Both the position numbers and the translations under genes were made by a program. Source: Crossaster papposus (Eukaryota > Echinodermata > Asteroidea > Velatida > Solasteridae). From it: a stretch of DNA of 64,000 bases. Position 1 is the first letter of the stretch. Every line of letters starts with the position of its first letter. The stretch covers positions 1 through 64,000 of the forward strand of contig JBAIAA010000882.1 of NCBI GenBank assembly GCA_037893245.1. Reading direction: 5' to 3'. The notes beneath the pieces were generated by a model. It made no database searches. It was not told the DNA's origin and worked only from the letters and a program-made list of their open reading frames with translations. Shown here piece by piece: positions 22,848 to 62,200 of this stretch.

Positions 22848-22926
22848 ATGCCTAAACCGGAACGTCAGAACTACCATAAAGTCGGGGATAACGCTGAAAC
22901 AGACCCAGCATACCAACCCAACCAAG
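22848..22926 (+). CDS. ANO5-like: Anoctamin alternative first exon a
   Basis: ATG in a good context (gccATGc) opens 26 codons beginning [15 protein letters not shown] and ending PAYQPNQ, then donor G plus gtagga. It ends in phase 1, the phase needed by the acceptors at 30873 and 38187. The segment is hydrophilic, as expected for a cytosolic anoctamin N terminus. Assignment rests on phase and order, not on similarity. Confidence 0.5.
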
Positions 22927-35000: not shown

Positions 35001-38000
35001 TTTGGGGATTTTGGTAATTAGGTTCGTCTTTAGTAATGCCCAAGAAATAATATTGATTTTTTTTGTTGAAACGTTTTTATTGTCACAAAGCAGACTGGTT
35101 TAATCAAGACATCTGTTTGTGAGAAAATGCAACCCCATAAAATGTTAATAACATAAATTTAAGGATTTTAAACATCACACCAAGATAAAAGCAAATTTGT
35201 TTAACATTTTACTTTAATTGAAGAAAACTTTATGTGAAGAAAAGAAATCTATTTGCTTTCAAAGTACACCAGTAATAATTATATAGAGATGATACCTGAT
35301 GCTCTTAAAAACAGGTATTTTTTTTCTTATTTGAGTGAATATTCAATTCCAATGTTTTGTGCATTTGCAACGCTCTGAGGGAAAAGGATTTTCATTTTAA
35401 GCGTAAGAGTTATTACCGAGTTATAATTCAATTTGTATTAAGAAAGATTTTAACCAAATTCAATTTTGTAGTTGGTTGCAAGTTGCCAAAAACTGTCACA
35501 ATCAGGTACCGTACATTATGAATGTTTTAGATTACATTTTTGATCAGTTTACAGATGTTAAACTTTTGTGAATAAATACAAAGCGAAATGTGTAAATGTG
35601 TTTTTTTATGCTTAAACATTTTCATGTAACCTTACTCCCTTTTCGTTCTCCACTGTGTTGTCAAAACTCGACTCACACACTTTGTACATTCATTGTACCT
35701 GTACCATGGAGGAATATTCATATTCATCCCTGCTTGTACCAGGAGAAAAGAAATAGGAACTTCAAGACTAAATAATAGGTGGTCTAAGAGTTGCCAAATA
35801 ATAAGTTGTTGCGTGGATTTTATCCTGCTTATATTTATAGTATAATTGCAGGTATGTGTGTAAAATGATAAGTTTATGAATTGTGTTTTGTACACTAGTG
35901 TTAATAGCTAACTCATTAATTTCCCCATGGCGCTATTAAACGGAGGAAGTCTGCATGCATAAAGGCCACATGACCTTAATCTTTTTAATTCCCAGGCCAG
36001 CCCCATATTACAACCACTGTCTTTGTAAACAATAGATCACCATCATTATGTGATACAAATGCACATCTATGACAAAACTGTCATTGATTTAACCCCAACT
36101 CCCTAGTGTAAAAACCATACCCATCCTGGCAAATCCCAACACCATATGGCAAACTGTACACACAAACTGTTCTGAAGGTATGGGTGTGTCTAACCATAGG
36201 CCTAACACAGTGTAAAAGACTAGTAATTAAGATAATTCTGCTACGTATTTTCTCTATGCTTCAAGCTATGATTTTCATTTTTGGTTTTGAATTATTTTAT
36301 GAAATTGGAGCATTGAATTTGTGGTCTGTGGGTAATTATGTAGGGTGTGGGCTCGAATATTATTATTCCAGTACCGTTTCTCAAGTTAACTGTGGAGGTA
36401 TACGCATATATGTAAGCTGTGCCCCTGTCAATTGTACTCTCTTTGTTCGCTTTGAAAAGTTAAATTCCTGATGGTTTGAGCATGGAGGCATTTATTCCTC
36501 CATTGTTTGAGGTGGGCCACAATCTGTATTGTCTTTTTTGCCAGGAGTTACATGTAGATTCCTAGACATGGCTTTGCAAAACTTTTTGTTTGCTTTCTCT
36601 CTTCAAGGCAACAACAAAAAAGGTTTATGACCTCAGGGATGACATGCTTGGCTAATCCCAGGTCAGTACAGGAAAGGGAAAAAAAGAGACTTACATCCGA
36701 GGTGGATAAAGTATACTGTGTGGGTGTGTGACACTTTCAATAGGTTGTGCCTGGTGCAACACTGGAAAATTAGGAATTTGTTGCATTGCATGGGACATTG
36801 TACTTGTACATGTATTGTCTATTCATAGTCAAAACAGCTGTGTTTTGCTGGAGTTTCTGATGTACAGCACACATGTACAGTCATCAAGTACACATACATG
36901 TACAGTCCTGGTTTAGAGGCATTGAAAACTCAACTTTGTAAACTACCACTTGTTCATGTTGTGCACGGATGTAACATACTGTAGTGGCGACTATCCATGG
37001 TGTACATACCGGTACATGTACATGTAGTATCCTAATAATCAGTGCTTCCACAATTGCTGCATTGAATCCGTATAAACAAACATGTTAAAAAGCAAGGAGA
37101 AGGACGAGGATAAAAAGCCACTTGCAAATGAAGATCTTGGTGAGTATTAAAAGCAGTTTACATAAAACGTATTAAGAATTGGATTCCTACCCCTGTAATA
37201 TTTACGTGTGTATGACGTAGCTCCATGGTTCAAATACCCTGAAATTAATAGGAAGTGGAATTGAGTACATGTACTACAATGTTGTTAACGTTTTTCAGTC
37301 AAGGTTGTTAAGGGGGAGTGGCTGTGCACCGCTAGCGCTGAGCATAAAGCATGCATTGCTTTCAGTAAATTTACCTACCGTAGCCCATGTGTGACAAACC
37401 GTGACTTTCTAATAATGGACTTTCTAAAAGCTTGGGGGAGAGGTCACTGAGCATGCTCAGTCGTCACAAACTATGTGACGTCAAAATTAGGACATTGTTT
37501 ACAAACTATTCCGGTATATCTAGGCTGTATCGAATACTTGGATATATTCAAATAGTCTTTGCTGATTTAAATATTCACAAAGAAAAATAATATCCAATGT
37601 TTCGTAAAATTGTTGGTTGTTATTCCTCGATAGAAAGCCTCAATCTCACTGGCCCATTCACCATTGAATGCCAGCCGCTATTTTTGCTGTTTGCCAAGTA
37701 CGGATGCGAGTATAATTTATGCACAGGGTAATATACACATACATAGTAGACTAGCACACATGTTAATACGGTGTGCTTGTCTACTATACATGCGCTTTAC
37801 GATGGAACTAGCACACTGGTGTAGCTACACATAACAAAGATGGCAATAACCTAAATATCAATCCAAGTTTCTGAAAATGTAATGCAACAGAATATATATG
37901 AGGTACTGTATAGTAAAACAAATACAATATTTATTTTGGGTGGTTGGTCGATATTATTAGCTTCCCTCGGTATTGGAAGTTGACCAACTAGTTCCCTCTG

Positions 38001-41000
38001 CTTTTTTTTAAGGTTTTTTAAAATGACGTTTGTTATTCAGTGGCACTGCCCACAAAATGACTGGCACCTGCCCCTAGGGAAAGTCTATAGCCTCTACCGA
38101 TTTGGTTTTAAAATTCATGTTTACTGTACATTATATTTTAATCATCTACATTTTATTCCCTTCCTGTCGCTCTCTCGCTGTTGCAGGACTGGAGGCCTAT
38201 GGCGATGGTCGATCCCCGAAAAATGGAACGGCGCCAGAGAACGTAGAGCTGTCTGAGAGTAATAAAGAGGACGAGCCACTCACAGACGACAGGGTATGCC
38301 ATAATATTACCTATTATCTTGCCCTTTAGATTGTAGAGGTGCCCTAATACTCTTATAAGTAGTGCTCTTTAATTGGCTGTCAATGTGCAAAGAAGGGACT
38401 GAATTGTAATTTGCTTAACCAGTTCGCGCCGGGATTATTTTAACATCGCCGAGCCGACGGGCGGGATTATTTTTAACGAAACTTGATCCGAAGCGTGTTC
38501 AGGCTGATAGTGCCGGGAAGCACACCCACGCATTTCCGGCCTTGCGCGCTGCTGACATACATTTCCGAACTTGAACTTGGCGTGTTTATGCGTCATCCGT
38601 TTTGAATTTGGGGGAATGTTTGCGTTTATATACGTCATCCGGCGCGAACTGGTTAAAAAAATAAAATTGGTTGTCACAATTTTGGTGCGAGTACTGTATG
38701 TTTATAGACTGTATACTTATAAAATTGCTTGTTTTCAATAGTTGAGTGTAGCCTGTAAAGTAACAAAGTACACTTAACCCTTCTAGATGTAAAAGTAACC
38801 AATTGGGTCAGTTGTTCAGCAGCACACAAAAATACACACTGTGTTTTTGTGCATACTGTTTGTACACTGCTGTGTGTAGAATTGTATAAATAGGAACACC
38901 TCCTGCAAAAAGGTGGACATTTTCTGCATATTATTTTGTGATCCAAAAAAGTACTTTACGTGTACAGTGTATACATGTCCATGTAGTTGTAAAAACATGT
39001 TTACAGTTAGTGCCAAAACGTGGCTCTGACTTTTTTCACTTTATCATTTCAGTACTTCAGTACTTCCTTATTTTACACAAAATTTGTTTTTCAAAATCAG
39101 CAGCAAATACAGCAACATATTAAAATGGCTGTAACTTAAAAAAACAAACAAAAAACCCACTGAACTTAATGATTTCTGCCTTCCCCCGATTGTTAACCCC
39201 AAAAGCAACCCAAGGAAACGGAGAAGAAAGATGGCTCGGACCTGTACTTCCACGACGGTAAACGTTGCATCGACTACATCCTAGCCTACAAGAAGGGTGA
39301 CTCGGAGAAAGATGTCCGAAGGGCGGGCAAGCGTCAGGAGTTTGAGGACAACCTCCGGGAGGAGGGTATTGAGACGGAAGCGGAGGAACCTCAGGTAAAA
39401 ATATTCATGGTTACCCAAAATAAAATTGACAAGCGGACAATTTAAAACACAAGTAGGACCGCCTTAGGCATTCTGGCATGTCCTTGACATTTTCCAGACT
39501 GCTCTGCAAATTTGTTTTACTTTTTTAACATTGTTTTAAGTGCTTGTAGAATTGTGAGGCGTTCTAGAAAAATGAAATTTATTGATATGTATTGTTTGTT
39601 GTGTCTACTAACTATAATTGTGTTGCGAAGAAATATTATGAAAGCAGTGGAATAAGAGTTTTTCAGGAAAAACTATTGGCATTTTTCCATATCACATGTA
39701 CAAAACTCGAAACTTCAAAGGCCTCAACATGTTTGCGACATGTTGACAAATGCAAACTACAAACAGCCAAAACTTGTAAACAGCCATAACTTGTTAACTT
39801 GTAAACAGCCATAACTTGTAAACGACATTGAAAGGAGAATTTACAAAACCCTCACTTCAACCTCTGTCTAGTTCCGTCGCATTTAGCCAGAACCCTTCAC
39901 AATCATGTTTTCAACTAACTGCTAATATTTTCTCTGCCATATTGAAAAAAAGATGAAAAAAAAAATAGATTTATAGTTGAAAACACTGAAATTACACGTA
40001 GCATATTGTTTCTAAATATGATTTCAATTACATAGAAGTTTTATTCAATAATTTAGAATAAAAAAAATGGACCAGTAATAGTCGTGGAAGTGACAGTGAC
40101 AGAGATGTTGACTCTAATGAATAATGACCTGCCCATTCTTCTAATTTCATCATTGTTTCCCCATTGTTAGGTACATACAGAATAGCATACTATTGCCATA
40201 CATGATGCATTGCCCATTTCATTGCAGCTTAAACCATTTTATTGCAGCTTAAACCTGACTCTGGCAATTCGAATTAGAGAATTCAATTGCGAATAGTCAT
40301 TTTTATCTGCTAAATATTCTTAGTTTGTTCTTAGAAGGCAGCCACACTTTGAAGCCAGATATTGTCAATGGCTGTTGAACGTGCATGATACGTTTCCATC
40401 AGTCTATTTTGCCAAGTTAATGTGTATGATTAATTTTACACATTTTCTGATTTATTTTTATTTTGTTTCACTGAAAATTGGAAGGGCTAAATTCCAGACA
40501 AGAAAATCATTTTCAGGAAAGCTAAAGTTAACCCGTCGAACCTTTGCATTATCTGCTTGGAATTATATAAAAAAAGTAGAGGAACATAAAGCCCTAGGTG
40601 TTTAAATCATGCTAGTTAAAATCAACCTCCCCCCCCCCCCCCCCCCTCCCTCTCCCTCTCCCTCTGTATGCTCTTGAATTGTGCTGCTGTTTATAACAAA
40701 TAATTTGACTTTTCTTGCTTTTCAATGATTTTATATTCATCATGTTCATATCATCTTCATTCTTTCATGCTGCATGTTTTAATTTTTTTGCTGACGTCTT
40801 TTGCCTGCTATGAACTGACTAATTCTGCCTTCTCCCACCCACTTTCTGCCGCATGCACCCACCAACAGTCCAGTAAAGGCGTAAGTATATACCAGATAGA
40901 TGTAAATGCAGGTCAAGTTTTGAACTGTTAGCAAGGATTTCTTAGACTTAAACGAGCATGGTTTCGGAAGTATGCCTTTTTATACACTACATGATATGTT

Positions 41001-44000
41001 CATGTACATCCAATTTATGGTTCCAATCTAGAATCTAATGGGATCCAACCAGTTTACATTTTTGTTGGGCCTTGTTGGATTTAGCAGGCCAGTCATTTTC
41101 CATATTGCGGAAGGCATTTAGAATCGTATTTCTTTGGGTTACTGGTAAATAATGCCAAGTTGGACTCTGTTAGATCCAACAGCAAACAGAAAAATAAGAC
41201 AGTTGGATACTGTTGGAATTAGCAGGCAGGTAATTTGATAAGTTCAGGTGAGTTGGACTGTGTTGGATTGAGCAGAAAGTCATATGAGTCACAGTTAGAC
41301 TCTGTTGGATTTAGCAGGAAAGTCCAGAAGAACTATTGGGGGTTTATTAGGGTTAATTTTCATGTCGGGTACGTTCGAAGACTTGCAGCAGTTAGGAACT
41401 TGATGGTTTTTTGATGCACGGTACATACAGTAATAATGACGATCACATGTCTATATTCGTGTCATTAATTTTATTTGATGATGATGATGATAATAATAAT
41501 AATAAGTTAAGATTTATATAGCGCCCGTCCATAAAATAAATCGTGCTCCTAGGCACTTTACTTAAAAATTTGGAATATTAACAGTAAAAAGATTAATTAC
41601 ATGTAAATACCAAAAAAAATTAACTTAAAACAAATAATATACCATCATGGAGAAAGAAATGCAAAGAACAGGCCATAGCAAAATTACAGAAATACTATTA
41701 TAATGTCGTGTTTTTGTCACCCAGGCACAGTGAGCTATATACTATTATTTTTTATTTTTTTTAAGCCAAAGGGGAATACTGTATGTGTTAGCCTTGTCCT
41801 TCATTGTATGTATGCACTTTTAATGTCTGTATGCAATGTATAAAGCGCCATAATCATCTATGGAGACCTTGAATTTGCCTTGGTGATTAATCTAAGTGAA
41901 TGTGCTATCAACTGTGTAGCTAGCTGCCCACTCTTTGGAGATTTAAACACATTTTCAGTGGCCTTGCCGTGCTTTGTGATGTTGCAATAATGTCCAGGCA
42001 TTGTGTACGTGCTGTAAATTAACCGGTACCTTATAATGGCACTCCCTATAAACTTTTAGCAGGCAGTGGGTTTTTTGGACAGGAAACTTTGACTCATTCC
42101 CTGATTCAGAATTTCTGACCTTGGCCCGTTGAATTCAATTCCTTTAGCTTGTCATTGGGATTCCAGTGCTGGTGTACATACAGGTACATGTATGTTTAAC
42201 CATCAAATGCAACTGGTCCCCACTTACACCTGTTAATACAATTAAACCAGGCTTTCCTGTTCACTGAGCACCAGGCATTTGTTACTTAAAATTTAGGGCT
42301 TTGTACATGTACATGTACTCTACATTCTAGCTTGCATGAAGGTGCCCCTAATAGCATAGCTCCATGAGCAAACACAAGAAAACAAATATAACAGAAAAGA
42401 CACTTTGCTTTTGCAGTTATTGGAAATTAGAATGAAAATATAAAAATAATTTACAGTTTTGTTTATATCTGGATTCTGCAGAACAAGAGCTTTCTAATGC
42501 AATACAACATTTGATGGTACTGAGTTCAGTTATACAGATCCCCAACTAGATTAAAGTCGTAAAACATAATTTCGAACATTAAAGTGCATTTGAAAAATCC
42601 AGCTACATGTAAATGAACAGTCAATGAAAGAAGATAGAAAAGTTTGATAGAAAAAGAGGAAAAAGGTGGAACGAGACCTATAAATGTTCACTCAAAATAA
42701 AATCGAATCGACCATCCCCTTTAAATTCTTGCCGCTGCAGGTCACATACGCTATTCATGTAATGTGAGACTGCAAATATGTAAAACAAAAATTCAAATCT
42801 TTATAGTACCGGTACATGTAATTTTGTTAGCTGCAGGTATAATTTGCTCAGTAACTGACTACTGAAGCATATTGTAAATTAATTTACTTGAACTTGCAGA
42901 ATTCTTGTCACGGTTTTAAAGCACCGGTAGTTATTTTAGTTTTCATTATATTTTTACAGGATATGTTTTACACATGTAGCTTATCTTTTGTTTCCTGCTT
43001 TCGTACACGTCGCTTGTATAAATAAACTACCTTTTGGCCATAATACATTTGTATTTTGAGAGAACAGGACACTCGTTGTTGCAGTAAGGGTACAATGTTT
43101 GCAATTGCAGTGAATACCATAACTACCGTAATGTTATTGAAATGCCTTACTTGATTGTAACCTACATGTACAAGTAGTGTGCGGCCTTAAAAAAGAACCA
43201 CAAACAAACCAATTGTATTAATTCATAATGATTGGCTAACCATCGTTGTTTTTGTTTTATTTAACCAGGGTGGCCTAGCTTATCATCAGTAAATAAATAA
43301 TTCCAAAAGGGCCCTGCATATTACCTAAATAGTATTTAAAACAGAATTTGGAATAAAACAAGACCAGAAACAAAAAGAAAATCTAAAATTGCAACCATTC
43401 ATTATGCTCAATATACCACACACATTGCTTCTAAATGTCATCGGCACTTTGACTAAACCCATAACATTGATTAAATGAGGATTTTGAACAAATGCAAGAA
43501 ATAATCGATGATTTTTACATACTGGTAATATGAGGATTTTGGAGGATTGAGGATGGTTCCTAGCCAAAAGGGCCTAAGGGGTTATGGTTAATGGGTGCAA
43601 GCCAGCTAGTCTGGTTCCCTGAACTGAACAAGAAACTAGACTACAATAACAGCAAACATGCATGTGGGTGGCAGACATGCACTTTGTATATTACCAACAA
43701 GTTCTAATTAAAATGTCCCCCCCCGTTCTCCAGGCCTCAGCTGATGGAATTACCATCTTTGTCAAGCTACACGCACCTTGGAAGTTACTTTCCCGACAGG
43801 CTGAGGTACTGAAAGTCAAGATGCCCATCAAGGTATGATGTTACTTTAATAACTGTTTATTGGTTTGGTTGTTTAAAACGATACATGAGGTTAATATTAC
43901 GAGTGTGAATAGGACACTAAATAAAGCAGAATGCTGATGATTGGCCTATGGGCGAGGTCGAATTGGGACGCTGTTCACATGGCAACTATTCTTCCCATGG

Positions 44001-47000
44001 GGATATACCGTATGTCACTGGTGTTACGCGCTGCGTTATGTTCAGTAAATATTGTTTACCAGTGGGATTTCTTTGTCTGTTTGCTGACCCGTCACTATCA
44101 TAGCGGGAATTAGACACTTGAATTTAAGTATTGTATTTTTTCCTTTAGGTAAATGACATGGAGGAGCCACTGTCCGTTCTGAACTGCATCAAGAAGATTC
44201 CGACGCCCTTTGACCTTTCGCAAGAGTTCATCAAGCCAGAGCCCAAATACTTCACCACTGCATTTGTGCGTGAACGAGAGGATGAGTAAGTCATGTTCAA
44301 TATTATTATGTTTGTTTATTTTTCTTCAATTCTTTATTTTTATTTGGGTTATTTCTTAACGTATTTACCTGTTAAGTGTTTTAACCAGTTTGCGCCGGGA
44401 TTATTTTAACATCACCTAGCCGAGGCGCGGAATTATTTTTTACGAAACTCAATCCGAGGTGGGTTCAGGCTGATGGTACAGAGAAGCATACCCACGCATT
44501 TCTGGCCTTGCTCGCTGCTGACAGACATTTCTGGCCTTGCTCGTGACGTGCTTATGCGTCATCTGTTTTGAATCTGGGGAAAACTTTGCAGGTATCAACG
44601 TCCTTTGGCATGAACTGTTAAAGATGAAATGTATCCTAAAATGTCTGGTTTTGCGTGTTTATACAGGTTCATTATGGAGGACAGAGATACCTTCTTCAGC
44701 ATGTCACAAAGAAATCGGATGGTAAGCCCAGTATTGATTACCCTAGTAATCAATCGTAGTAATCAATCAGACGTACAATATAACCCACAGTGAGCATGCA
44801 GAAGCATGTATTTGGTTTGATATTTGTTCTCAATCTTTTAGTTAGTTGGGAATGGGGGTAGGTGATGGGGTTCTATTTATCAGCAGTATTTATTAAAGAG
44901 GACATTTTTATGATTTCCTTGAAATGAGAGAAAATAATCTTGAAAAGGTAAATATTTCGGGTTTAGAATTTATACCACGAAATGGTTCAATTAAACCACT
45001 TTAATTCATTGTGATTTTGTTTTGATTTATCTTGCAAAGAATTATTTCAGTTGAAATTGATATTTGTACATTGATTTCTCTCAGGTACATGAAATCCTGG
45101 AAAAATGCCGATATGATCAAGAAGACAAGACAAAGTTTGGTGAGTTAACCCCCCAATTTAATAGCATATTAACAATGGGGGAATGAGATTGGCTGGTTTT
45201 GAACCTAGTTGTTTAATATCTACCAAGCACACATTTATTCCTAGGGTGGTTTTGCACATGATTAACGTTCTTGTGTTTGACGTTTCTCCACAGGCATTGA
45301 TCACATGATTGCCAACGGTTCCTACATCGCTGCGTACCCGCTGCACGAGGGAGATTACAAGAGCAAACATTCCATGCTCACCCATGGCCCCATGAATGAT
45401 CGCCACGTAAGACAATACTATATCCTCGGATTGTTAGACAAATACTCTAAGAGGAACAACATGTTAATGTTAGTTTATTATGTCATGTAATTGTACAAGT
45501 ATTTAATGTCCAAATCAAAGACATGATGTGGTGAAATAGGCAGGCAGTTTGTGGCAGTACAGTGACTAAAAGTGGACTTTTAAGTATTCTTACGTTCCCC
45601 CACACTTTTCCCCCTACCTTTCCCCCTACCTTTCCCCCTACCTTTCCCCCTACCTTTCCCCCTACCTTTCCCCCTACCTTTCCCCCTACCTTTCCCCCTA
45701 CTTTATTCCTCCTACTTTGTTTCCTACTTTTTTTCCCCTACTTTTTTTCCCCTACTTTTTTTCCCCTACTTTTTTTCCCCTACTTTTTTTCCCCTACTTT
45801 TTTTCCCCTACTTTTTTTCCCCTACTTTTTTTCCCCTACTTTATTCCCTACTTTTCCCCTAGATTTTTCTGAATTTATAAATCATTATTGATGGTAACCT
45901 TGATTATTCTTTGTGTAGCTGCTGTATGAGGAGTGGGCCCGCCCAGGCCGTTGGTACAAGAAACAACCCCTCAATCTCATCAGGTATTTACTATTGTGCC
46001 ACGGCCTTTTTTAAAATTTATAATTATTGTTTCTTCAAGATAAGTTCCTGCACCATGTCTGGGCACTGCGGGTTTGAATCTCGGCGATTGTTATTGTGAT
46101 CGGGCATGAGATTTTTCAGATTGAATATCAAAGAAATACAAATCCAATTTGTGTACCTTAACAGTTCACGTCGGATGATGTGTATGCACACAGTTTGTCC
46201 AGAATTCAAAACGGGTGTTGGATAAACATGTTATAAGTAAGGCCGGAAAATATCTGTCATTGACCGGCTTCCAACGAGGGAGGCAGGAAATATCAGGGTG
46301 TGCTTCCCCTAAACCTGTCTCAGATCGAGGTTTGTGAAAAATAGTCCCGCGCCTTGGCCCAGACGATGTCAAAATGATTCCGACGCGAACTGGTTAATTA
46401 AATTGGCAGTCGCCTCTCTAATTGTGGCTTTGTTGTATGTGTGGTTTCAGCGACTACTATGGAGAGAAGATCGGCCTGTATTTCGCCTGGCTGGGTTTCT
46501 ACACTGAGATGTTGACCTATGCAGCCATTGTTGGTCTGATTGTATTCCTGTACGGTTGCATCTCTTTACCCTTTGACATACCGACGTAAGTCTGCACTCA
46601 AATTCCTCCCCGTTTATTGCCTCTTGCCATACAGTCATGTCTGTGTCACTCAACTAACCCACATTCACTATTTAACCTTTGGTCTCTCTCAGAGGCCATT
46701 GGCTCTCCAAGCAAGACACCTACGTATCGACTCTATTTGTAAATGTTGTGTAATCGGCAGCTAAACTACATTACTTTTTGCCTAATAATCTACTAAATTA
46801 TGAAAGAAAATACACATATCTAAAGATTGTATGGACTTTTTGGTTTAACTCTTGATAGGCAAGAACTCTGCGATGCCAATAAATGGGAAAACTACACCAT
46901 GTGTCCTCAGTGTAACAAGCGATGTGGGTACTGGCTCCTGGAAGCTGGGTGTTTCTACTCCAAGCTCACCTATCTCTTCGATAACGCTGGCACCGTCTTC

Positions 47001-50000
47001 TTTGCAGCCTTCATGTCTCTTTGGGGTCAGTGCCAACATTCTTTCCTTCCAGTAATTCTTCAACTTTTCATGACAGTTGCACAGATATTCATTATTTCTT
47101 CTTTACAGTAGTAATTCCATCAGTACACACATGTCCACAGTTTGTAGAAAAATGAAGGGGAACACCCAATCAACATTTGGGGTTAACAAAAATTATTATG
47201 GAAGCAAGAAAAACAAGTATTTAGCCAATGTATTTCTCACTGCAAGAATACACAGTATGTATGAAAGATACGACTACTGTGTCTGTATTTGCTTTGTTGC
47301 AGCCACTATGTTCTGTGAGTTTTGGAAGCGTCGTCAGAATGAGTTGGACTATGACTGGGACCTGTTTGGCTTTGAAGATCAGGAGGTGACACTTGCTTTT
47401 TATTTCTAAACTTATAAACAAGTTTACAGGCCTGTTTTATTCATTTCCAATTAAAACACTACTCAAATTCCAAAGAAGGTTCCAAACCTAACCAGTTGAC
47501 CTTTGGTGAAACGTACCTTTTGCAACTATTCAGAAAGTAACCAACCAAAATACTGTTGGAAAGCTTACTTGTTGTAAAGATATTAATGATTTTAAATTAC
47601 AGTTCCAAAGTTATGAAATAGTAATTTTGGTTTTAATAATTATTAATAAATTCTTTTTTCCCAGGAAAACTGCCGCCCTGAGTTTGAAGCGCTTGCCCCT
47701 GACAAGCGAGTCAACCCAATCACCAAGGTACGTCATCGTTATAATCATGTTGATCAAGAGAACATTTGAATCTTAAAGTATAATTGTGAGATATTCTGAC
47801 AAAATGAGACAGAACTGGGCAGAGATTGAATTGACGGTTTGCAGGTATTAGGAAAGAGAATAAAATACTACTTTAACCCTCATTACCCCAAGCCCATTAA
47901 ACTCCAACTGCAGGTTTTGCTAGGTTTTGGCACCAAACATTAGCAACTTGTTGTGGGACTATGTTTGACTCAGTACCAAAGGCCCAGGAAGACCCTGTTA
48001 AATGATTTGAGGTTCAGGGCAAAAAGGCATGAGACTTGTAAAAATGAACACATTGATATTTTGCTACGGCTTGTGCCCATTTCTGTCTCATTTTGCAAAA
48101 ATGCCAAGCATCTTTTGAAGTCAAATATTAAGAATGCAAAAATCCTGTTGGGAGTTTGGATAATTTATAACGATACTCCTGAATGAATGGTTAAAGGGGT
48201 ATTACAGCCTGAAATCTCGCAAACATTTCATAATTTCTATTGTTGACTTAAACTATTTCAAGCATCTGATTGAAAGGAAACTAATCTAATGTCTTATCGT
48301 TGCCGAGGAAAGATGCGGGGGAAAAAAACAGTTGTTTACATCAGACACGGTAGAGGAAGCATGTTTTTCCTGTCGTTTTAATTCAATGTACAATATACGA
48401 TGTGATTCACATAAATTGCACACAGCACCAATGCCAACAAGTTGGTTTCTCTCATGTCCGCAGAAGGCGGACACTCTGTGGCTTGAATCACGACGAGCAC
48501 TAAAGAGCCCGATTCGGTTATTTGGGTTCCCAAAAGTGGACCCTAAAATTCAGTTTCACAAGTTTTTAAAGGAATATACTGTGGATGTTTATATCCTATT
48601 TTAAATGCTCTTTCCAATTAGACATTTTGTTCAAAATGCATTTTTGTAGCCCAATTTGGTGCTTTCTAGGCCGTAATGCCCCTTTGAGTGACGGACTACT
48701 GACTGACTACTGGCCTACTGTCTTCTTACTGACTTTCTGTATGACTACCAACTGACTGACTGACTGACTGACTGACTGACTGACTGACTGACTGACTGAC
48801 TGACTGACTGACTGACTGACTGACTGACTGACTGACTGACTGACTGACTGACTGACTGACTGACTGACTGACTTGCCTTGACACTGACTGACAGACAGTT
48901 ATTTTCAATTTGCTGAAGATGTATTTTATCTGACTATTGTGACCATATTTGTGCCCTGTTTCATTTGACCATTTGAATGAATCCAATCTTTTGTTTCGTA
49001 TTAGGAAGCTAAAGTTGACTGGTCCTCTCGTCATCAACAGAACTTCATCTTATTGCATTATTGTTCACTTACGATTCTATATATCAATTTCCCCCAGTCA
49101 TTTCCCATTCAGTATCTCAGAATCAGCACAATATTTATAACAAAGCAATTCAATAGATGCAAAATTGTATTACCTAAGTAATACAGCATTCCTGGCCTTA
49201 ACTGTTTCTTTTGGTTTGCCCACGTGGAGTAATGCCTTTTTTTTTCTAGCTCTCAGAACCATATGTTAAGTTTTACCGTAAATTTCCAAGATTCATGGCA
49301 TCAGTCCTTGCAATCGTCTTCATGGTGAGAAGTTAAACGCCCGGCACTGGATGGATGTACAGTAGATGTTTGAATGTATGTGTGTAACACTTGTGTAACC
49401 GTTTTCCTTCCTTTCCCACACCTCGCTCAACTAAATAAAATACAGGGCGTCTAAAAAAAAAACAAGAAAAAAACCCGGTAACTTTTTGATTACAGCTGCC
49501 TGAGCCGTATGTGAAGTTTGCTCGCCGTTTCCCCCGCTTCGTGACGTCGATCGTGTCAATTATGTTCATGGTGAGACACATGCCGGTCGATAAATAGTCG
49601 GTGAAGAAAAGAAACTAACCACGTCTCTTTTCTCTTACACGGCATTGCCAATTTCCATATTTCTGGCCCTCGCACTTGTTAACACTGCTGGGACGCCAGG
49701 TTTCGGAGCCCTACGTCAAGCTACGCCGTCGCTTTCCTCGTATCACTGCATCTATTTTGTCCATAGTGTTCATGGTGAGAAGTATACTCATGCATAACCG
49801 CAACCCTAAACAAATAATATTAATAATAATAACGGTCCGACGGTGGAATAAAAATGACTCGCAAGAATTTCTCTGGCAGAACAGGAGCAAAGGGGCAATT
49901 AAAGTGTAGCAATTGTTTTAAAAATCTCAAAGTTAATTAGGTGTGCGGAACACTTTGATGGGACACACTGGAAAATTCCAAAATAAAAAATCTGAAATTT

Positions 50001-50195
50001 GTTGTTTATACAACTGTGCATCATAAGCACAAGCCTTTTTGATGTGGCTGAACTGAATGAATCAAATTTTTCAAGATTTAATAGCATTAAAAATCCTGAT
50101 TAAAAAAAAAAAAATTGGTTGAATTCTAACAAGCTTTTTAATCAATTGACAATTGTCCGCCAAAAGGTCATCTTCAAACATTTATTCCGAAGAAT

Positions 50196-50269
<74 letters not shown>

Positions 50270-53200
50270 GTGTTTTTTATCTCTGGTCGAGTTTACTATT
50301 GTGTAACGTGTGTTCACCATGGCTGGTGCCATTAGTGCCCGTGTTCGTCTGTTGGTGTTTTTACATCTGGTTGTTATCATACATAACTCGCAACGGGTTC
50401 AATTCTTTGCTGATGCTGAGACTGTCAGAAATGAGTATTTTGTGTCTTCAGATCAGTACATGTGTCTGACTAATTTTGTTGTGCCAATCACGCCCTGTCA
50501 TGGGGTAACATTACAGCTGTGCCGTACTGGATTTAATTTCTCAAAAGTTCCATTAGTCAAATGGTCCAAACATGGCCAAACTACTCTAGTTATTCCTGGT
50601 CACGACCCTCCACATGATATAACAATATTTATGGATATTTCTGTTAACCCAGGCCCTCGTATTGGATGCACTAGCAATGACGAGTTGCATTTTATGCATA
50701 CAGAAAATTCGCCTTCCATGTCTAATACAACTAGAATGTATTCCCGTAGTCATCTTTTTAACATCCGTAAGACTTGTTATCACTCCATTCAGCCTGAATT
50801 GTTTTCGATTCTGAAAGCGAATGGAATTTTTCGGTTCAGGGGTAGTAGAGCGGGTCATTGTAACTATAAGTGTAGAATTCCTGTTTACATTGGTCACCGG
50901 CTTGATTATGTTCATAATAGGTTAGCTTTGGGTAACCGTACTCCTGTCCTTAAACACATTGTTGTAAATCCTGCCGATTCCTCTGATGATCTATTTAAAC
51001 TTTGTTGCTTAAATACCAGATCTCTTAAAAATAAAACAGCCGATTTTGTGTCTTATGCTATTAATAGTAAGGCTGATTTGTTTGCCCTTACAGAGACTTG
51101 GTTTACAGATATAGATGTTGCTCACAAGGTTGAAGCAACTCCACCTGGTTTTAGATTACTGGATCATCCCCGGAAAAACCGTGTGGGGGGAGGCACTGCT
51201 TTGTTGTTTCGTGATAATTTTCATGTCAAGAAAATTGCTGGAGATGAATTAGATTCATTTGAGTTTTCAGAATGGTCTGTAGGAATTAATTCGTTTAAAT
51301 TACGACTTGTAATCATTTACAGGCCACCATACTCAGTTAGCCACCCTTGTACTGTTAATCGGTTTATCACTGAATTTGCCGATTATTTAGAATCCATTAT
51401 TTTATCTTCTGAACCAATTTTAATAACTGGAGATTTTAACATTCATGTTGACATATCTGACGATCCAAACACTAAACGTTTTTTAACACTTCTTGAATCC
51501 ATGGGTCTCCGGCAACATGTTAACAAACCTACGCATGAAATGGGTCACATACTAGATCTTGTTATTACCCGGAAATCGGACATAGTTCTTAACAGTACCC
51601 CGACACCTCACCACCTTTTCTCTGATCATTTCTCTGTTATTTGCAACTTGCAACAAAACAAGTCTTCTTTTCCTGCTAAACAGATTGTTTATAGGGATAT
51701 TAAATCCATTGACATTAATTGCTTGAAAAGTGACTTAGTCTCTTCTAGGCTGTGCAGGGACACTCCTCAAGGTCTTGAGGAGCTTACGAATTGTTACAAC
51801 ACTACACTAGCTGGTACCTTCAACACACATGCCCCATTAAAGTCCAAGATGGTCACCACTAGGCCCCGTCTACCTTGGTTTAATCAAGAAATCAACTCTG
51901 CCTTGAGGATGAGGAGACGTGCAGAAAAGAAATGGCGACGAACTAACATGGCCGCTGATCTTTCAGAATATAAGCTAATAAGAAATAAGGTAACCTTTCT
52001 TCTTAACAAAGCTCGCTGCAATTTCTACAAAGACTTTATCGAAAGTAATAGTTCCGACCAGAGGAAATTATTTAGAGCATCTAAAAAGCTGCTTGGGCAT
52101 AGTAATGACGTCCTCTTTCCACCTTTTAAAGATAAAATGACCCTTGCTAATGATATGGGTAGCTTTTTTGTAAAGAAAATATCTAATATTCATGCTAAAC
52201 TTGATGACTTAGAAGTTTCAACCTCTGTTGGCAGAACGTTCTCTTTTACATCTGAAACATTGTCCAGTGGTATCTTGTTTGATAGTTTCATACCATTAAC
52301 AGAGTCACAGGTAAAACAGCTTGTTGTCAATTCTTCTAAGGGATCATGCGCTCTGGATCCTATGCCTACTAACCTTGTGGGTGAGTGCCTTGATGTTTTG
52401 CTTCCAGTACTTACCAAAATTATAAACTCATCTTTAGTATCTGGCACATTTCCTACTGACTGGAAAGAAGCTTTAATTTGCCCTTTATTAAAAAAAACCA
52501 ATCTCGATATGAAATTAGAAAACTACCGGCCAATCAGTAATTTACAATTTATTTCTAAATTAACTGAGAGGGCCGCTTGTGACCAACTTTATTGTCACAT
52601 GTCAAAACATTCCATGTTTCCGGTTTTCCAATCATCTTACCGGAAGCATCACAGTACAGAGACGGCGCTTATAAAGGTTAAAAATGATTTACTGATGAGG
52701 ATGAATTCCCAACATGTTATTCTGCTTATTCTTTTAGACCTGAGTGCAGCATTCGATACTGTTGATCACGTCATTTTATTGAAACGTCTGCAGTCTAAAT
52801 TTGGAGTCACTGGCAAGGCCCTCGATTGGTTTTCGTCTTATTTGTCAGATAGAAGCCAACGCGTATCCATTCAAGGTACCTTATCAGACAAGTTTAATAT
52901 CAACTGTGGTGTTCCTCAGGGATCCTGCTTAGGACCATTTTTATTCATTGTCTACGCCTCTAAATTGTTTGACATCATTGAGCATCATCTGCCTGATGGT
53001 CATTGTTATGCCGATGACACTCAGCTGTATCTATCTTTTAGACCTGACGATATATCTTGTCAAGCTGCTGTAACTGTAATGGAAAATTGCATCAGGGACA
53101 TCAGGCAATGGATGTTGCATGACCGGCTTTTAATTAATGACGCTAAGAGTGAATTTTTGATCATCGGATCAAAGCAGCAGTTAAAGAAAATTAATATTTC

Positions 53201-56200
53201 TGATATCATGATAGGCGATGTTAAAGTTTTCCCTACAACATGTGTTCGTAATTTGGGGTCATGGTTTGATTCTGAACTTACAATGAATACCCACATCAAT
53301 AAAGCTTGCTCTGCAGCCTTTTTCCATCTTCATAACATCAAACGAATTAGTCAATTCCTGACGCAAGACTCTCTTGTAAAACTAATTCATGCATTTGTGA
53401 CCAGTCGTCTTGATTATTGTAATAGCCTTTTGTATGGTCTGCCAAAGTCACAACTAGCTAAACTGCAAAGGGTTCAAAATGCTGCAGCCAGAATTGTTAC
53501 TAACACACCCCGGTTTGAACACATTACACCTATAATTCGTCAATTACATTGGCTGCCTGTTTCGTACAGGATTAATTTTAAAATTCTTTTGTTGACCTTC
53601 AAAGCTCTTCATGGTCTTTCTCCAAAGTACTTACAGGATCTTGTTTCCATCCGGAAAGTATCTTCATATCAACTTAGGTCAGGGAATAATGGTATTTTCT
53701 TAGATTATCCCTCTGGTAAAATGTTGACTACATTTGGTGACAGGGCTTTTTCTGTGGCAGCCCCTAAGCTTTGGAATGCACTACCGTTTCATATACGTAG
53801 CGAACAGAAACTCACCTCTTTTAAATGTAACATAAAAACCCATCTTTTTAAAGCCGCTTTTTAGTGTGTTTTTGGTGTTGTTATTTTTTGTCTTTTGTTT
53901 GTCTTTCTTCTATGGTCGCCTTGCCAGTTTGTTTAGATTTTTAGTATAGATAGGGTTTGAGGCGTCTGTCTCCTGAAAAGATCAAGACATTACCGATGCC
54001 AGCAGGGATAGGCCTATGTAATTAGTAACTATTAGTTCTCTGTTGGCGGGACAGACGTATCCCCATACTTTTGTTTGGGCACTGGCCTGGTGATCAGTCT
54101 TTTTTCTTTGTCTTTTTCTTCCATTCTGTGCTTTTTAACATGTGTTCTGCGCCTTTGATCATTTTGTATGTAAGGGGCGCAAAATAAATTTTAAATATTA
54201 TTATTATTATTATTACTCCTCAATTTTGCATCTATGTGGTAAGATATCTATCTGCATTCAATTTCGTCATAAATTGCCAGAAACACTCTTGAATCGTGCG
54301 TGTTTCAACCCAAGAAACTTTGCCCTGTTTCACATCAGAGATCCTCTTTTGTTATGTCTCAATATACTTTCATTTTTTATTTTTTTTCTGGGATCATGCT
54401 ACTAATACTTCTAAGAGAATGCTTCTATAATTACTGGATGTTTACTCTCGCTATACACGACCGATATCCTGCTTACACTAGTGGCGCTGTTCTTAGTAAT
54501 ATACAAGTTTCGGTGATGATTCCTGCACTGCCTCTAGAGAGCGCTATGATGCGACAACATTCACTCTTTATCATTCTATTTTATCGCAGCGGCTTCTCCA
54601 GACTTCTTTCTCTTCATTAATAACTGATATTAACCTTTGACCTTTTGCGCAGGACTCTGGCACTGACTAAACTCCTTCCTTGACCCTTTGTGCACATGTT
54701 GGACGTGTTCTTAATAGTGTAAAGAATAATCATTTGTGGTTATCAAGCATGTTCGCTAGCATTTAAAAAATGTGTTCTTCTTTAGCCCATTTTGTTTCCT
54801 TTTACCGTATACGACTATAATTTTCTATCGACTGAAATTGTAACGTAAAAAATGGCTAGGTAACTAATGGTCAAGATTCTTCTGAAATAGAAAGGAAATG
54901 TCTAAAATTAAGGCCTAAATAAACCTGAGCAAGAACATAGTCAACTTAGCAGGCCTCTGATAACGTCATGCATGACAACCACAAATAATTATGGCATGAT
55001 TTGTCGGCGATTATCTCCTTTTATTTGAAACCCTACTAACAAGACTAACCTGTCAATCCTTCTATCATCTTTATTTCTTTCTTTCAGTGTTGCCAGTAAC
55101 AACTCCAGGATGCATATTTGAGAGTAACTGTTAAAACCTTATAATTGTGGCATATTGTGACTGGTTTGGACTGACGGGCACATTTGGAACAAAAAGCTCA
55201 AGACAAACGAGTTAAACTTGATACATTAAAAAGATATGACATGGACTTGTCAGCCAAGGCCGTTGAATAAAATTTACTCTTTTGAATTCGTTGGGTCACT
55301 AGACAAGTGGCTCCTGACAGCACTGATTACATTGTCCAATCGGGTTTTACCCTTTACAAATCGAATGCTTTTGCAGTCGGCCATATATGGCTCTGTTGTA
55401 CAAAAACCCACAATTGTCACGTTTGACAGTAATGAACCTCTCTCTGCAGATTTCAATCTGTCTGCTCGTGGAATGTTACTTTCAACTTGTCTAACCTCCT
55501 TTTTGTTTATATCAACTAACCCCTGCACCCAACCTACCTGCCTAACTCCACTACTTATCAACACCTCTCTGCATGCTTTGGTTGTTGATCTTTGTGTGCT
55601 TGGGACTTGGTAGAAAGAAGAACCGCACGTCAGCTTTAAAACTCGCTTCCCAAGGTTTATGACCGGCGTGGCTTTTGTTTTGTTCTTCGTAAGTTGGAAA
55701 CTTTATTTGGACTTCTTCTTGTCAACAAGAAAAAATTAATTTATTTGAGGCCACTATTAAATGAATTAAATTGGAAGAGAAAGATCTCAAAGCCAAAGAA
55801 AAATTAGTATTTTCAAAGTTATGAGGCGGGGAATTATTTACTGAGATTGTTGCTAAACAAAATTGAGACCTGCACATTGCTCTGAACTATATTTGAGGCA
55901 CTTGTCCATGTGTAAAGGGTGAGTCAAACACAAGTTCCCTCGTGTAGAATATTTTTGTTAAATAAATGTTAGGCAAATATACACATAGGTAGATAAATAA
56001 ATAAATGTTTTGGGCTTTTTGACTTTTTATATTTTTTATTTTTGAAATTTAGAATTTACTCGTTTGGTTTCAAAGTATATGTACAGATCTCCACAGTGCA
56101 CCATGCATTCTAACCCTATTCTAAATTGTGTCTTTTGTATTGAGTGCAAGCGAACTGTATACAATACAGATTCATTTTGCAGGCATTATATTCAATTGCA

Positions 56201-59200
56201 AAGAATTTAAAATTAGAATTTCCAAATTATGTTGTTTTTCACAGTAGACCATAAATTAGATGCACTTTCCTATAAATTTAAGGTTATTTTTACCATAATA
56301 ATTCTATAAATAATTTTACCATTTTGGTTAAGTTTAAGGGAACTTCTTTTTGACTCCCCTGTATGTCACAGGAATATATGTACCAAATACAATTTGAATT
56401 CTTACATAAAAAAATATAAATAAAATGCATTTGCAGTATCCTGTTGTAATAAGGAAATAATTATATAAAGAGAACATAAGATACTTTGTGCCAGTTTCAC
56501 CAAACAATAATTCCCGGCCTCAAAACAGATAAAATTTGTAAATTTTCCCAAGTCCCCAAGTTTAATTTCTGATTTTGTTTATTCTGAAAGCTTCTAATTC
56601 TAATTGCAAGCTATATTTAACTTTTCCTTGTTTCATAACCACTTACTAATGTTGTTTTTAAATGTGGCCATGTCGGTAAATATTTATGTATATCATCTTT
56701 GGTTAGAAAAGAATACTTTTAATTGTGGGAGAGACCACTGATGATATACTAAAATATTTTATTTTGTGTCCTATAATTTATAAATTAATTTTATTAAGAC
56801 TATAAATCTAGAAAGTAATGTTAGATGCACAATTATTAGAACAGGGTTCATCTAGCTGCTAAAATAAAATCTAATAACATTTTTAATATCTGACGTTTTG
56901 CAGATGTGCATAATGAAACTTGTTGGGTTTTGGTTTTGTGTTAAAACAATTTTTTTGTCGTAACAGACATTTTAATATATTGTGCAGCGATGATTGTGTT
57001 GTGCTAATGTGTTGGGTGGGGGGAGCAGAAATAAAATCTGATATTTTCTACGAAAACCCTTCATTATCATATGAACCCTGTTAAAAAAAAAAAACATTAA
57101 TAAATCAAGCTTAATTAAATAAGTGGGTTATATTCACATAAATATGCATTCCAGTTATACCAAAACCCTTTGGGAATCTTGTTCCAAGATGACAAACTGA
57201 TATCCTTGCATCCTCATTCAGTTTGTGATGTTGGACACAATTTACCCGGCCGTGTATTACTCTCAATATTAATCGATTCTATGCTGTTTCCTCCTCCTCC
57301 CTCCTGCGGTAACGGTCAGATATTCCTGGTGTTGGCTGCGGTAGTCGGTGTCATCATCTACCGTATTGCCATCAAGGCGGCTGTGGCAGCATCCGGTGAT
57401 GCATTCATCAGTTCTCAAGCCTCCATCATTACCTCCATCACTGCCTCCTGTATAAGCTTGGTGGTCATCATGGTCCTGCAGAACGTAAGATACAAACAAA
57501 CAACTAGCTCTATACCTTTATGCTGCGGTTCAAGCGCGTCGTGTTTATCGTGTTCACCGTGAATTTCTCCATGTTTACGAGTGGGTTGCATTCCAAACGC
57601 TACCCACCAAGATGCACGCGCACAGTCAAGTTTTGTCGTAAGGCAAGGACATTCTATATCGCGCAAGAACTCGTACGTGAAAGAACACGCATGCGCGAGT
57701 AATTCATTCGTTTATGAAGTCGTGAACATAGAGAAAAAAAATCCACCTCGAGTTCACTACTGGTGAACACGAGTTACCAGGCGATTATAACGTCATTATA
57801 TGACTCGTGAACACGATAAACACGACGCGATTGGAACGCAGCTCATGCCCTCGGGCAAGTGCAGCCAAGAGCAACTTTGATCAGGCAACTTTGATGGTTA
57901 ACTTGTGATTGGTTTGCGATGTTCCTAGCGCATGCGCCATGCGGTGTATTCGAAACCCTGTCCTCGTTTGACCCGCGAACGGTGGTGCTGAAACATACAC
58001 AGACAAAACAATATTTTACAATAACACGATATGACCGTTAATTTACACCATAATAGTGATTGAAAAGTTTAAAATATCTTGCATAACCGCCGATTTAATT
58101 GTACAAAGGTGACAAAAGTGACAGAATCACAAACTAACGTTAACAAAAATTGCCATTTTGCATTAGTTGTCTGCCACTTTTTTATTAATAGTTGGTCCCA
58201 TGCCATGACAATTCTGCTATTGATTATCAGCCCGACCAGCTTGTATCGCTTTACTATCATTCTCTTATTTATCCCAAATGATTTCATATTTGTTTTATTT
58301 ATTTTTTCAGCTGTATGACAGAATCGCAACTTGGCTGACAGATCTGGGTAATTTTGCCATTTGTTTTGCATTTCAATAAAGGCTGGGTTTTTAATGTTTG
58401 TCATCCAAGCAAACCTGTGACTTTTTTTATTATTTCTAAACTTCGTATTTTCAATAAATGTACTGGTACAATTTGGTACAGGTTCCAAAAACCATGGCCT
58501 ACATTTATTTTCTCTGAAGCCTATTTAAACAGGGTTGGTGAGGTGGGACACGAACCCACTACCTTATACTTTAGTCCCTGTACCTTATCGCTTGAGTAAA
58601 CAGCTATCCAAAAAGTAACCAACCAAAATACTGTTGAAAAGATCTTACTTGTCGTAAAGATATTAATGACTCTAACCCCCTGTGAAATTATTCCCTCTAG
58701 CATGCTGTCACCTTGAAGATTAGCATTTCTAAAAATGTGTCCTAGAGATGCATTTTTGGTTCTGTTGGTTGGTTATCCGTGAATGGTGCGCATGGCATGG
58801 CTGTGAGTTTTCTCGATGGAGAAATTGAGAATAAATTGATTAAAGATGCCGTGGTTTGTATTTCCTTCAGAGCTGCATCGCACTGAGACAGAGTACGAGG
58901 ATAGTTACACCTTCAAGATGTACTTCTTTGCCTTTGTCAACTACTACTCCTCATCCTTCTATGTGGCCTTCTTCAAAGGAAGGTAAATTCATCCACTTAC
59001 AGTATTAGGCCTCGCGTAGGGTGTATCATATCAATCTATGCACTGTGTATCATATCATTCTATGCACTGTGACAGGACCATTATCTTAACTAGAGGTAAA
59101 TATGTGACCCACTCTAAAAAATATCTCAAAGATGGTTTAATTTTCTTTCAACAAATCATTTTTTGTTAATGTTTTTTTGTCGTCCTCTTAACCAGTTCGC

Positions 59201-62200
59201 GCCGGGATTATTTTAACATCGCCGAGCCGATGGGCGGGATTATTTTTAACGAAACTCGATCCGAGGCGTGTTCAGGCTGATAGTGCTGGGTAGTACACCC
59301 ACGCATTTCCGGTCTTGCGCACTGCTGACATACATTTCCGAACTTGAACTTGGCGTGTTTATGCGTCATCCGTTTTGAATTTGGGAAAATTTTTGCGTTT
59401 ATATACGTCATCCGGCGCGAACTGGTTAATATCATAGCATGTATCCAGGTAATGGAATTCTTTCTGTTTGATGTTATTTAGTGTTGATTTTAAGCATTTT
59501 TTATTTATTTTTGTGAATTTGTAGCTTTCCTGGAAATCCCAGTGATTACGGCAAGGTCTTTGGCTTGCGTCAAGAAGAGGTGAGTACACTAGCATGTGCA
59601 TGACCAAAGCCGGCCGGGCTGAAAAGCCGGCCGGGCTGAAAAGCCGGCCGGGCTGAAAAGCCGGCCGGGCTGAAAAGCCGGCCGGGCTGAAAAGCCGGCC
59701 GGGCTGTAAAGCCGGCCGGGCTGTAAAGCCGGCCGGGCTGTAAAGCCGGCCGGGCTGTAAAGCCGGCCGGGCTGTAAAGCCGGCCGGGCTGTAAAGCCGG
59801 CCGCGCTGTAAAGCCGGCCGCGCTGTAAAGCCGGCCGCGCTGTAAAGCCGGCCGCGCTGTAAAGCCGGCCGCGCTGTAAAGCCGGCCGCGCTGTAAAGCC
59901 GGCCGCGCTGTAAAGCCGGCCGCGCTGTAAAGCCGGCTAAGGTATAGCTGCGTTCTAACTGTATTCACTTTAATGTTATATTACTTTTTAATCGATAGTG
60001 TGACCCAGCTGGATGCCTGCAGGAGTTGTTCTTCAACTTGGCCATTGTCATGTGTGGCAAGCAGTTCTTCAACAACTTCATTGAAATATTCCTGCCGTGA
60101 GTTTAACCTTCTCTAAAAGCTTCTTTCCCATGTGCTGTATCCGTTGGAACTCCTTGTCTCGTGTTTCCCTTCATTCTATGATCTAAATATGCACAAAATT
60201 TGATGTTTTACTAAACCTATTGAAATCGACTGTAGGAAAAGGCAACTCTCGCAATCCGAGGATCACTTTTTTTTTATTTCTTCTTTTGGTTTGTAGACTG
60301 ATGAAGAATTTCTGGCGTTCCCGCTCCAGCCGTAAGGAACAGAAGGAAGGCAAGGGCTCCTACGATCAGTGGGAGAAAGACTTTGACCGGGCTGAGCTAG
60401 GACCTCGTGGTCTGTTCAAGGAATACCTGGAGATGGGTGAGTAGTCCCCGGAAAAAAATGAACTTATTGCACCCGACCTTTCTCACCAAAGTGAGTAAGT
60501 TTGCCAAAACAAGTGTGCGTGATTCTGAAGGATGCATTGTGTCAAGGTCTTAGGCTAATGTTGTGCAGACTCAAAACTAAAACCGACTCGAAATTGACTT
60601 TGGGTCGAGTCGGTTTGTTTTTTTCATTTCATTTGGTTAAGTTTTTTGCTTGCAATTTGCGGGTCAAGTCAGGTCGGTTTAGCCATCTTGTGAAAAACTT
60701 GAAATAAACCCCCCAAAATGTTATAAAATTATAAAATTCACAACATGCTATAATATGGCCGAGTCACTGTGCCTGTTACTGCATTCATACTGTAGCATCA
60801 ACCCACGTGCTATTGTAAAAGTAGTTTATGGTACGACTCAGTCTGTAACATGTAGACCCACTGGTAGGCGGTGTTAAAAGTGTTCCTCATTTACTGACAA
60901 ACAGTTTTCAAAAGATTCTCTGTTTTGTCCAATGATCACCCACAGCTGTCCAGTTTGGTTTTGTGACCATCTTCGTAGCTGCCTTCCCGTTGGCTCCGTT
61001 CTTTGCACTGGTCAACAACCTGATGGAGATTCGTCTGGATGCCTACAAGTTTGTGACGCAGCTGCGACGCCCGTACGCAGCCAGAGCTCAGGACATTGGT
61101 GAGTTGGCCAACGTCTAAATCAAGGGATATGGGTTCAGGAGGGCCTTTGCGATTGGTGGTCCATGGTGAATAGCCATGGTCCCAAAAAAGCTGTAGTGTG
61201 ATATTGTAGTGTGATTGTTGGCGGTGCAGTGGCGGATCATTGGAGAGAATGAACCCCTAACAGATTTGATGATATTTGTAATTGTTGATGTGCCTACTAA
61301 CTTTATTTTGTTACGAAATAATATGGAAGTAGTGGAATAAAAGTGTTAATAAGGAAACAAACTCAAAACTTCAAAGGCCTTTTTTCTCAATTTTATTTTT
61401 GCGACATGTTCATAAATGCAAATTTTAAACAGCCTTAACAAACAAACAGCATTGTAAAGAGAATTGTACCCTCTTTTCCAATACCTGAGAACCCTCTGCC
61501 CAGTTCCATCTAATCTTGCCTAAACCCCTCACAAATGTTCCTGCTCCGAGTCGGTGCCATTAGCTGCCATGTGTAAACTAATGGGATCTCTTATCTAATA
61601 TATAAGTAGTTTAATTGACAATATCTTGTTTCATTTAAGGTGCATGGTATGCTATTCTTCTTGCCGTTGGCAACTTTGCTGTCCTGTCTAATGTAAGTAT
61701 GTTACTTGTAGCAATAAAAATAGATACAAACAAAACTAAATATTGTACCATCTATGTGTATATCAGGCATGTGAGTAACTAACACTAACAAAGTGTTAAA
61801 ATGAAGCTAGGCCAAAAATAATAAGGAAAAGATATTTTCTTGTACCTTTGTACACAGAAAGTAAACCCCAAAAAGAGGAACATCAAAACCAAAACAAAGG
61901 AAATCAGCTAAAAAGCAAATTTCACATGCCTGGTATCTCTTAAAAAATTCAATACATTAAACCCCAAAACCTTTTAGACTCTTCCTGTATATCTGGCTAA
62001 ATCCAAAAGAGCATTAGATCTGATCCACCCATCTCTCCCATTATCCCACCGAGCATTAGATCTGATCAACCCATCTCTCCCGTTATCCCACCGAGCATTA
62101 GATTCAATCCATCCATCTCTCTCGTTGCCCCACTGAGCATGAGATTCAATCCATCCATCTCTCTCGTTATCCCACAGGCCTGCGTTATAGCTTTCACATC

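Follow-up and report, generated by a model that had tools for sequence, protein, structure and literature searches.

Four tandem homologous exons for the start of TM3, apparently used one at a time, in a starfish anoctamin gene

In an anoctamin gene of the starfish Crossaster papposus, four homologous exons stand in tandem; they share one length and one phase, and each has its own splice sites. Every copy codes for the end of the loop between TM2 and TM3 together with the first 18 residues of the TM3 helix. This cluster lies in a 64,000-nucleotide stretch of genomic DNA, here called the window. Taken as a whole, the evidence is probably best explained by a four-exon cluster of which one member is used at a time; less certainly, the choice among members would tune lipid dependence. 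In the proposed pathway, the exon at 47665-47727 would be joined in the pre-mRNA to one of the four copies, and that copy then to the exon starting at 57320. The candidate alternatives A, B and C lie close together, with D 5.8 kb further on, beyond a retroelement. The splicing choice would set the lipid dependence of gating.

Host gene and locus

The first-pass annotation, made from the letters of the window, had taken the host gene for an anoctamin, and homology searches bear this out. The best matches of the joined 584-residue core, among 120 matches listed of 4912, are starfish proteins that carry the annotated name anoctamin-4-like, from Patiria miniata (84% identical), Acanthaster planci (82%) and Asterias rubens (80%). 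Homologues 80-84% identical over 99-100% of the query carry PF04547 and PF16178 (precomputed assignments), and the query also matches ANO1, ANO6 and ANO10 chains. When an AlphaFold2 model of the Patiria homologue (P0001) was submitted to Foldseek, the top matches were TMEM16A (E 1.5e-49) and TMEM16F (E 4.5e-49). The acidic Ca2+-site residues in TM6-TM8 point the same way: E652, E698, E730 and D734 of P0001 are invariant in 52 homologues, and E701 is conserved in at least 90% of them. Matched by eye, these are E654, E702, E705, E734 and D738 of TMEM16A, which are given as its Ca2+-site residues in the text available of PMC8480199. By sequence, then, the gene in the window is a member of the anoctamin/TMEM16 family.

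Full-length starfish homologues match a gene span of 30872..63204 on the + strand, besides which alternative first exons are likely further 5' of 30872. The starfish proteins differ in where their N-termini match: Patiria, Acanthaster and Asterias point to three separate upstream places (22848-22922, 27520-27618 and 28425-28487), the Asterias match being weak (E 0.07 with the whole protein, 2e-4 as a tile), which suggests alternative first exons of the anoctamin gene. Inside the gene span, a tandem repeat can be read as a long repetitive ORF at 59570-59980 on the - strand. A second allele or close copy of the cluster was considered and rejected, as a DNA search of the starfish's own genome (1.02 Gb in 1841 contigs) with 49200-49800 returned this place and no second one.

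The exon cluster

The cluster is flanked by two constitutive exons of the + strand. The upstream one (47665..47727) encodes 21 residues and ends in phase 0 before GTACGT; the downstream one (57320..57484) starts in phase 0 and encodes the rest of TM3 and what follows. Between them, on the same strand, lie exons A (49250..49324), B (49496..49570), C (49700..49774) and D (55614..55688), each of 75 nt and phase 0-0. The acceptor of A ends in tttttttttctag, B is preceded by AG, and C has a pyrimidine-poor acceptor, also with AG; all three have the donor GTGAGA. Exon D has an acceptor ending in gacttggtag and the donor GTAAGT. Frames and splice consensus are intact in all four copies. At the protein level A and B share 16/25 residues, A and C 17/25, and B and C 16/25.

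A profile made from 95 distinct homologous 25-residue segments and run over the six-frame translation of the whole window scores A at 43.2 bits, B at 40.1, C at 36.5 and D at 31.5. The next, unrelated match in the window reaches 9.9 bits, and 200 Markov-1 shuffles of 47728-57319 reach at most 13.4 bits. The first-pass annotation had placed three such exons at 49250, 49496 and 49700, each with its own acceptor and the GTGAGA donor; these positions are exact, with scores of 36.5-43.2 bits, and the count of three falls short by one, D having been overlooked. D first came to light through weak additional matches to three starfish proteins (E 0.04-0.27), and it is also matched by the exon peptides of A and B (E 5e-5 and 7e-6, respectively).

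The introns within the cluster measure 171 nt (A-B), 129 nt (B-C) and 5839 nt (C-D). The last of these holds a retroelement ORF of LINE type (50307..53864, + strand, 1185 aa; PF00078, PF03372, PF14529) with endonuclease and reverse transcriptase, oriented like the host gene. A long CTGA tetranucleotide array occupies 48751-48873, in the intron that precedes exon A. When five homologues were tiled over the window at E 0.01, no duplication of other exons of the gene was found, the exception being two isolated matches on the opposite strand (E 0.002-0.009).

Age of the copies and selection on them

Among A, B and C, pS is 0.87-0.95 against a pN of 0.20-0.23 (Fisher 1.4e-6, 7.6e-7 and 5.6e-9). With synonymous differences saturated and non-synonymous ones not, the duplications appear to be of long standing, and selection on the protein seems to have preserved A, B and C at least. 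These three copies look like old, maintained alternatives. Compared with A, B and C in turn, D gives pS of 0.77, 0.82 and 0.84 and pN of 0.44, 0.42 and 0.49 (Fisher 0.027, 0.003 and 0.009); it is intact and less conserved, and could be decaying.

There is an appreciable, if less than even, chance that A, B and C are the alternatives in use, D being silent or a relic. D stands 5.8 kb away, has the lowest profile score and ends in F and not M, and no counterpart of it turned up in the proteins returned; all 14 echinoderm proteins scored are nearest to one of the other copies. A short-query search (83 aa) for D-bearing fragments gave 10 candidates, none below E 0.001, and in a region search that used D as the query and took in 50 candidates as far as E 10, the segments of P0001-P0003 were not D, the fourth match being a nematode protein (P0121). 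Set against these observations are the consensus donor GTAAGT, the length of exactly 75 nt and the open frame, together with a pN below pS in comparison with A, B and C, and a nearest homologue among the matches listed that is a hemichordate segment (Saccoglossus, 13/25). The idea that D is the ancestral copy was also examined and set aside: 81 distinct non-echinoderm segments best-match A in 36 cases, D in 20, B in 20 and C in 5, which gives no clear answer.

Forms of the segment in other echinoderms

The homologues compared are one representative per 90% cluster and mostly predicted isoforms ('isoform X...'); the clusters of P0001-P0003 and P0005-P0007 have 12, 12, 24, 52, 35 and 15 members, respectively. 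Within starfish, the three representatives differ in the copy to which they are nearest. The segment of Patiria miniata P0001 is nearest C (23/25, with 17 to B and 15 to A), and that of Asterias rubens P0003 is nearest B (20/25, with 17 to C and 15 to A). Acanthaster planci P0002 is nearest A by BLOSUM score (95 versus 86 and 82), an assignment that rests on this score and on residue 9, since plain identity ties A and B at 17/25. Residue 9 is Y, A and R in A, B and C, and likewise in Acanthaster, Asterias and Patiria. Between pairs of these starfish the flanks, taken as 150 query residues on each side, are 86-89% identical and the segment 64-68% (Fisher 0.002, 0.010 and 0.038); with flanks of 60 residues the same test gives 0.0003, 0.005 and 0.03.

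A similar conflict is found in sea urchins. Lytechinus and S. purpuratus agree at 348/366 flank positions (95%) versus 18/25 in the segment (72%; p = 4e-4), and Diadema and S. purpuratus at 342/377 versus 18/25 (p 0.009). For Lytechinus and Diadema the figures are 334/366 and 23/25. This conflict between flank and segment implies that at least two forms are present among the urchin representatives. The best-scoring copy is B for S. purpuratus (92 versus 78 for A), A for Diadema (92 versus 82) and, narrowly, A for Lytechinus (90 versus 87 for B), so that nearest-copy calls in urchins are not sharp. For the two crinoids the best-scoring copy is A, and for the sea cucumbers P0008 and P0009 it is C, but a stretch of 25 residues is too short to carry much weight; in neither of these two pairs do flank and segment disagree. 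The segment is divergent, yet not uniquely so, within the protein: 43, 99 and 96 of the 557-559 blocks of 25 aa are less conserved in the starfish pairs, and 25/551 in the Lytechinus-S. purpuratus pair.

Four further ophiuroid and sea cucumber proteins (P0004, P0010, P0012 and P0020) have clearly different TM3 segments, with low net charges of 0, +1, 0 and +1. Among the matches listed there are several anoctamin-4-like entries from the brittle star Amphiura filiformis (P0004, P0010 and P0012). A 2010 study counted one anoctamin gene in S. purpuratus, according to the part of the paper available (PMC2974728). The anoctamin family may be larger in some echinoderms than this published count.

One copy at a time

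The first-pass annotation had expected the copies to be used one at a time, on the ground that two together would duplicate half of TM3. The annotated proteins of other species are in keeping with this expectation, whereas the reading frame gives it no backing, as exons of 75 nt preserve frame and so bar neither joint inclusion nor skipping. A single gap-free segment of 25 residues is present in 119 of the 120 homologues listed (of 4912), and the remaining one, P0118, does not extend to the place. Among the matches listed, the echinoderm homologues have exactly one copy in 14/14 cases. Four homologues (P0063, P0107, P0116 and P0117) have extra residues just upstream of the segment, and these bear no resemblance to it.

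These observations bear on the reading in which the copies are cassette exons, also joined together or skipped to give longer or shorter loops and changes of TM3 register, with no strict choice of one among four. This is an unlikely arrangement. It gains from the common length and 0-0 phase, which would keep the frame in either event, and from introns of 171 and 129 nt, a length judged not to be what forbids joint inclusion, as these introns are not very short. Nor did RNA structure give a clear signal for exclusion. A scan for a shared RNA docking site gave nothing beyond shuffled sequence, 18/20 shuffles being as good for the upstream intron and 4/20 for the downstream intron; a single pairing, between the upstream intron and the sequence preceding D, was matched by 1/20 shuffles. 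Against this arrangement stand the homologues, every one of the 119 listed that reach the segment having exactly one copy, the 14 echinoderm proteins included, and the upstream extra residues of four of them being unlike the segment. Moreover, two copies would insert a second pre-helix and half helix into TM3.

The splice sites offer a hint of regulation. The donors of all four copies are of the ordinary GT type. Pyrimidines number 15 of 22 in the acceptor of A, 12 in B, 12 in C and 13 in D, compared with 14-18 in 14 other acceptors of the gene (exon starts that form a subset of its exons, three starts set 1-2 bases off being excluded). The pyrimidine-poor acceptors of B, C and D would fit regulated use. 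The same figures could be read to mean that a single copy is used, for example A with the strongest acceptor, and that the rest are decaying duplicates. Only A has an acceptor as pyrimidine-rich as those of constitutive exons, and D is diverged and unseen among the proteins returned; for all that, such a state of affairs is very improbable, as protein is conserved over DNA among A, B and C, segments nearest to each of these three occur in an annotated starfish protein, and all four frames and splice consensus sequences are intact. The preferred reading is that the choice among copies is mutually exclusive and regulated in cells, which we infer from sequence comparison.

The segment and PIP2

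The segment spans residues 476-500 of P0001, where the AlphaFold2 model (mean pLDDT 82.7, 52 sequences) has a strand at 477-480 followed by the TM3 helix at 483-523. It thus takes in the final strand of the loop between TM2 and TM3 and, on the cytosolic side, the 18 residues with which TM3 begins, and the earlier proposal that it joins the loop to TM3 is upheld. When the segment is aligned with mouse TMEM16A, numbered without segment c, its position 11 falls on R482, part of a PIP2 site. The R482A mutation is reported to speed desensitisation of TMEM16A and to make added PIP2 less effective (Le et al. 2019, PMC6704070). The part of that paper available reports the same phenotype for R451A, K461A, K567A, R575A and K579A, and states that D481, beside R482, also matters (PMC6704070).

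Position 11 is basic in all four copies, K in A and R in B, C and D. Positions 8-11 read FYRK in A, FARR in B, LRRR in C and FKTR in D, and the net charge of the segment is +2 in D, +3 in A and B and +4 in C. Further differences among the copies fall at TM3 positions 15-23. Because the segment holds the R482 counterpart and a basic cluster, and the copies differ next to R482, the variants can be read as tuning a lipid contact. The isoforms may, with less certainty than the exon cluster itself, differ in the dependence of the open state on PIP2 or other acidic lipids, and perhaps also in lipid transport or the groove. This reading is borrowed from TMEM16A, a different paralogue, and the difference among isoforms may be small, as position 11 is always basic. 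The variants might instead act on the protein in other ways, for instance on its assembly, its trafficking or the binding of partners at the loop. To that suggestion we would give somewhat less than an even chance; the differences at TM3 positions 15-23 could change helix packing or the groove, as it would allow, whereas the mutations at this spot in the published text available concern PIP2 (PMC6704070).

Returning to the lipid-tuning reading, its fullest form is a four-way switch at least as old as the ancestor of starfish and sea urchins. By swapping the lipid-facing cytosolic mouth of the anoctamin, made up of the basic pre-TM3 cluster and the first part of TM3, this switch would give one gene a graded range of PIP2 dependence and possibly different proportions of ion and lipid transport, with cell type or stage deciding the choice. 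In this extended form it is put forward tentatively.

Comparison with known systems

Tandem clusters of mutually exclusive exons are of a well-known kind in channel genes. Exons 8/8a of CaV1.2, for example, are homologous, mutually exclusive tandem exons that encode part of a transmembrane segment; CaV1.2 belongs to another protein family, and the starfish cluster has four copies. The mutually exclusive exons of chordate G alpha likewise stem from local exon duplication giving deuterostome alternatives, in an unrelated protein, as described in the accessible text of PMC5896119.

Within the family, the comparison that the first-pass annotation had drawn was with TMEM16A (ANO1), which has optional segments in the TM2-TM3 loop: c (exon 13, EAVK, 4 aa) and d (exon 15, 26 aa) (PMC3170211, PMC8480199). 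According to the available text of the same sources, omission of exon 15 speeds both activation and deactivation (PMC3170211, PMC8480199). From the published exon lengths of 12, 72 and 78 bp (PMC3170211), counted by hand on the mouse sequence, the counterpart of the starfish segment begins with TMEM16A exon 16, after c and d. The parallel therefore holds for the loop and fails for the exon. Like c and d, the starfish copies appear to be alternative exons of an anoctamin TM2-TM3 loop that would alter gating, this effect being established for TMEM16A and proposed for the starfish. Unlike c and d, which are single optional cassettes, the starfish alternatives correspond to the exon that follows (pre-TM3 and part of TM3), in four versions that are apparently swapped and not skipped. 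A relic of the same duplication was sought in cassette d and rejected. In comparisons with A, B, C, D and the mouse segment, its score was reached by 696, 1400, 812, 54 and 863 of 5000 shuffles, and even the lowest of these counts, that for D, amounts to about 1% over five comparisons, which is too weak; the sequence used was what we take to be that of human segment d.

Vertebrate ANO4 (TMEM16D) is a relative by annotated name, with a cation conductance and a disease variant in TM3, Val528Met (PMC11179416). Unlike the starfish gene, it has no alternative TM3 exon described in the available portion of that paper (PMC11179416). A review of TMEM16 splice variants names none at this exon in the text available (PMC8835819). 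The 2010 anoctamin phylogeny left alternatively spliced isoforms aside, and the word exon does not occur in its main text as available (PMC2974728). Literature searches on mutually exclusive exons or exon duplication in anoctamins/TMEM16 proteins, and on mutually exclusive exons in starfish, found no such cluster described, in a coverage that lies outside most subscription journals; the first-pass statement that none was known at this place in an anoctamin agrees with this result. A cluster of the mutually exclusive type in an anoctamin, at TM3 and with four members, appears to be new.

Significance

The cluster bears on the way in which ion conduction, lipid scrambling and dependence on lipids are divided in anoctamins. 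Three or four versions of a short segment in an otherwise identical protein, seemingly kept for a very long time, amount to a natural mutagenesis set for the mouth of TM3 and the PIP2 contact. One starfish gene probably makes several versions of a lipid-contacting region, and this suggests that the diversity of invertebrate anoctamins is underestimated when genes are counted instead of exons.
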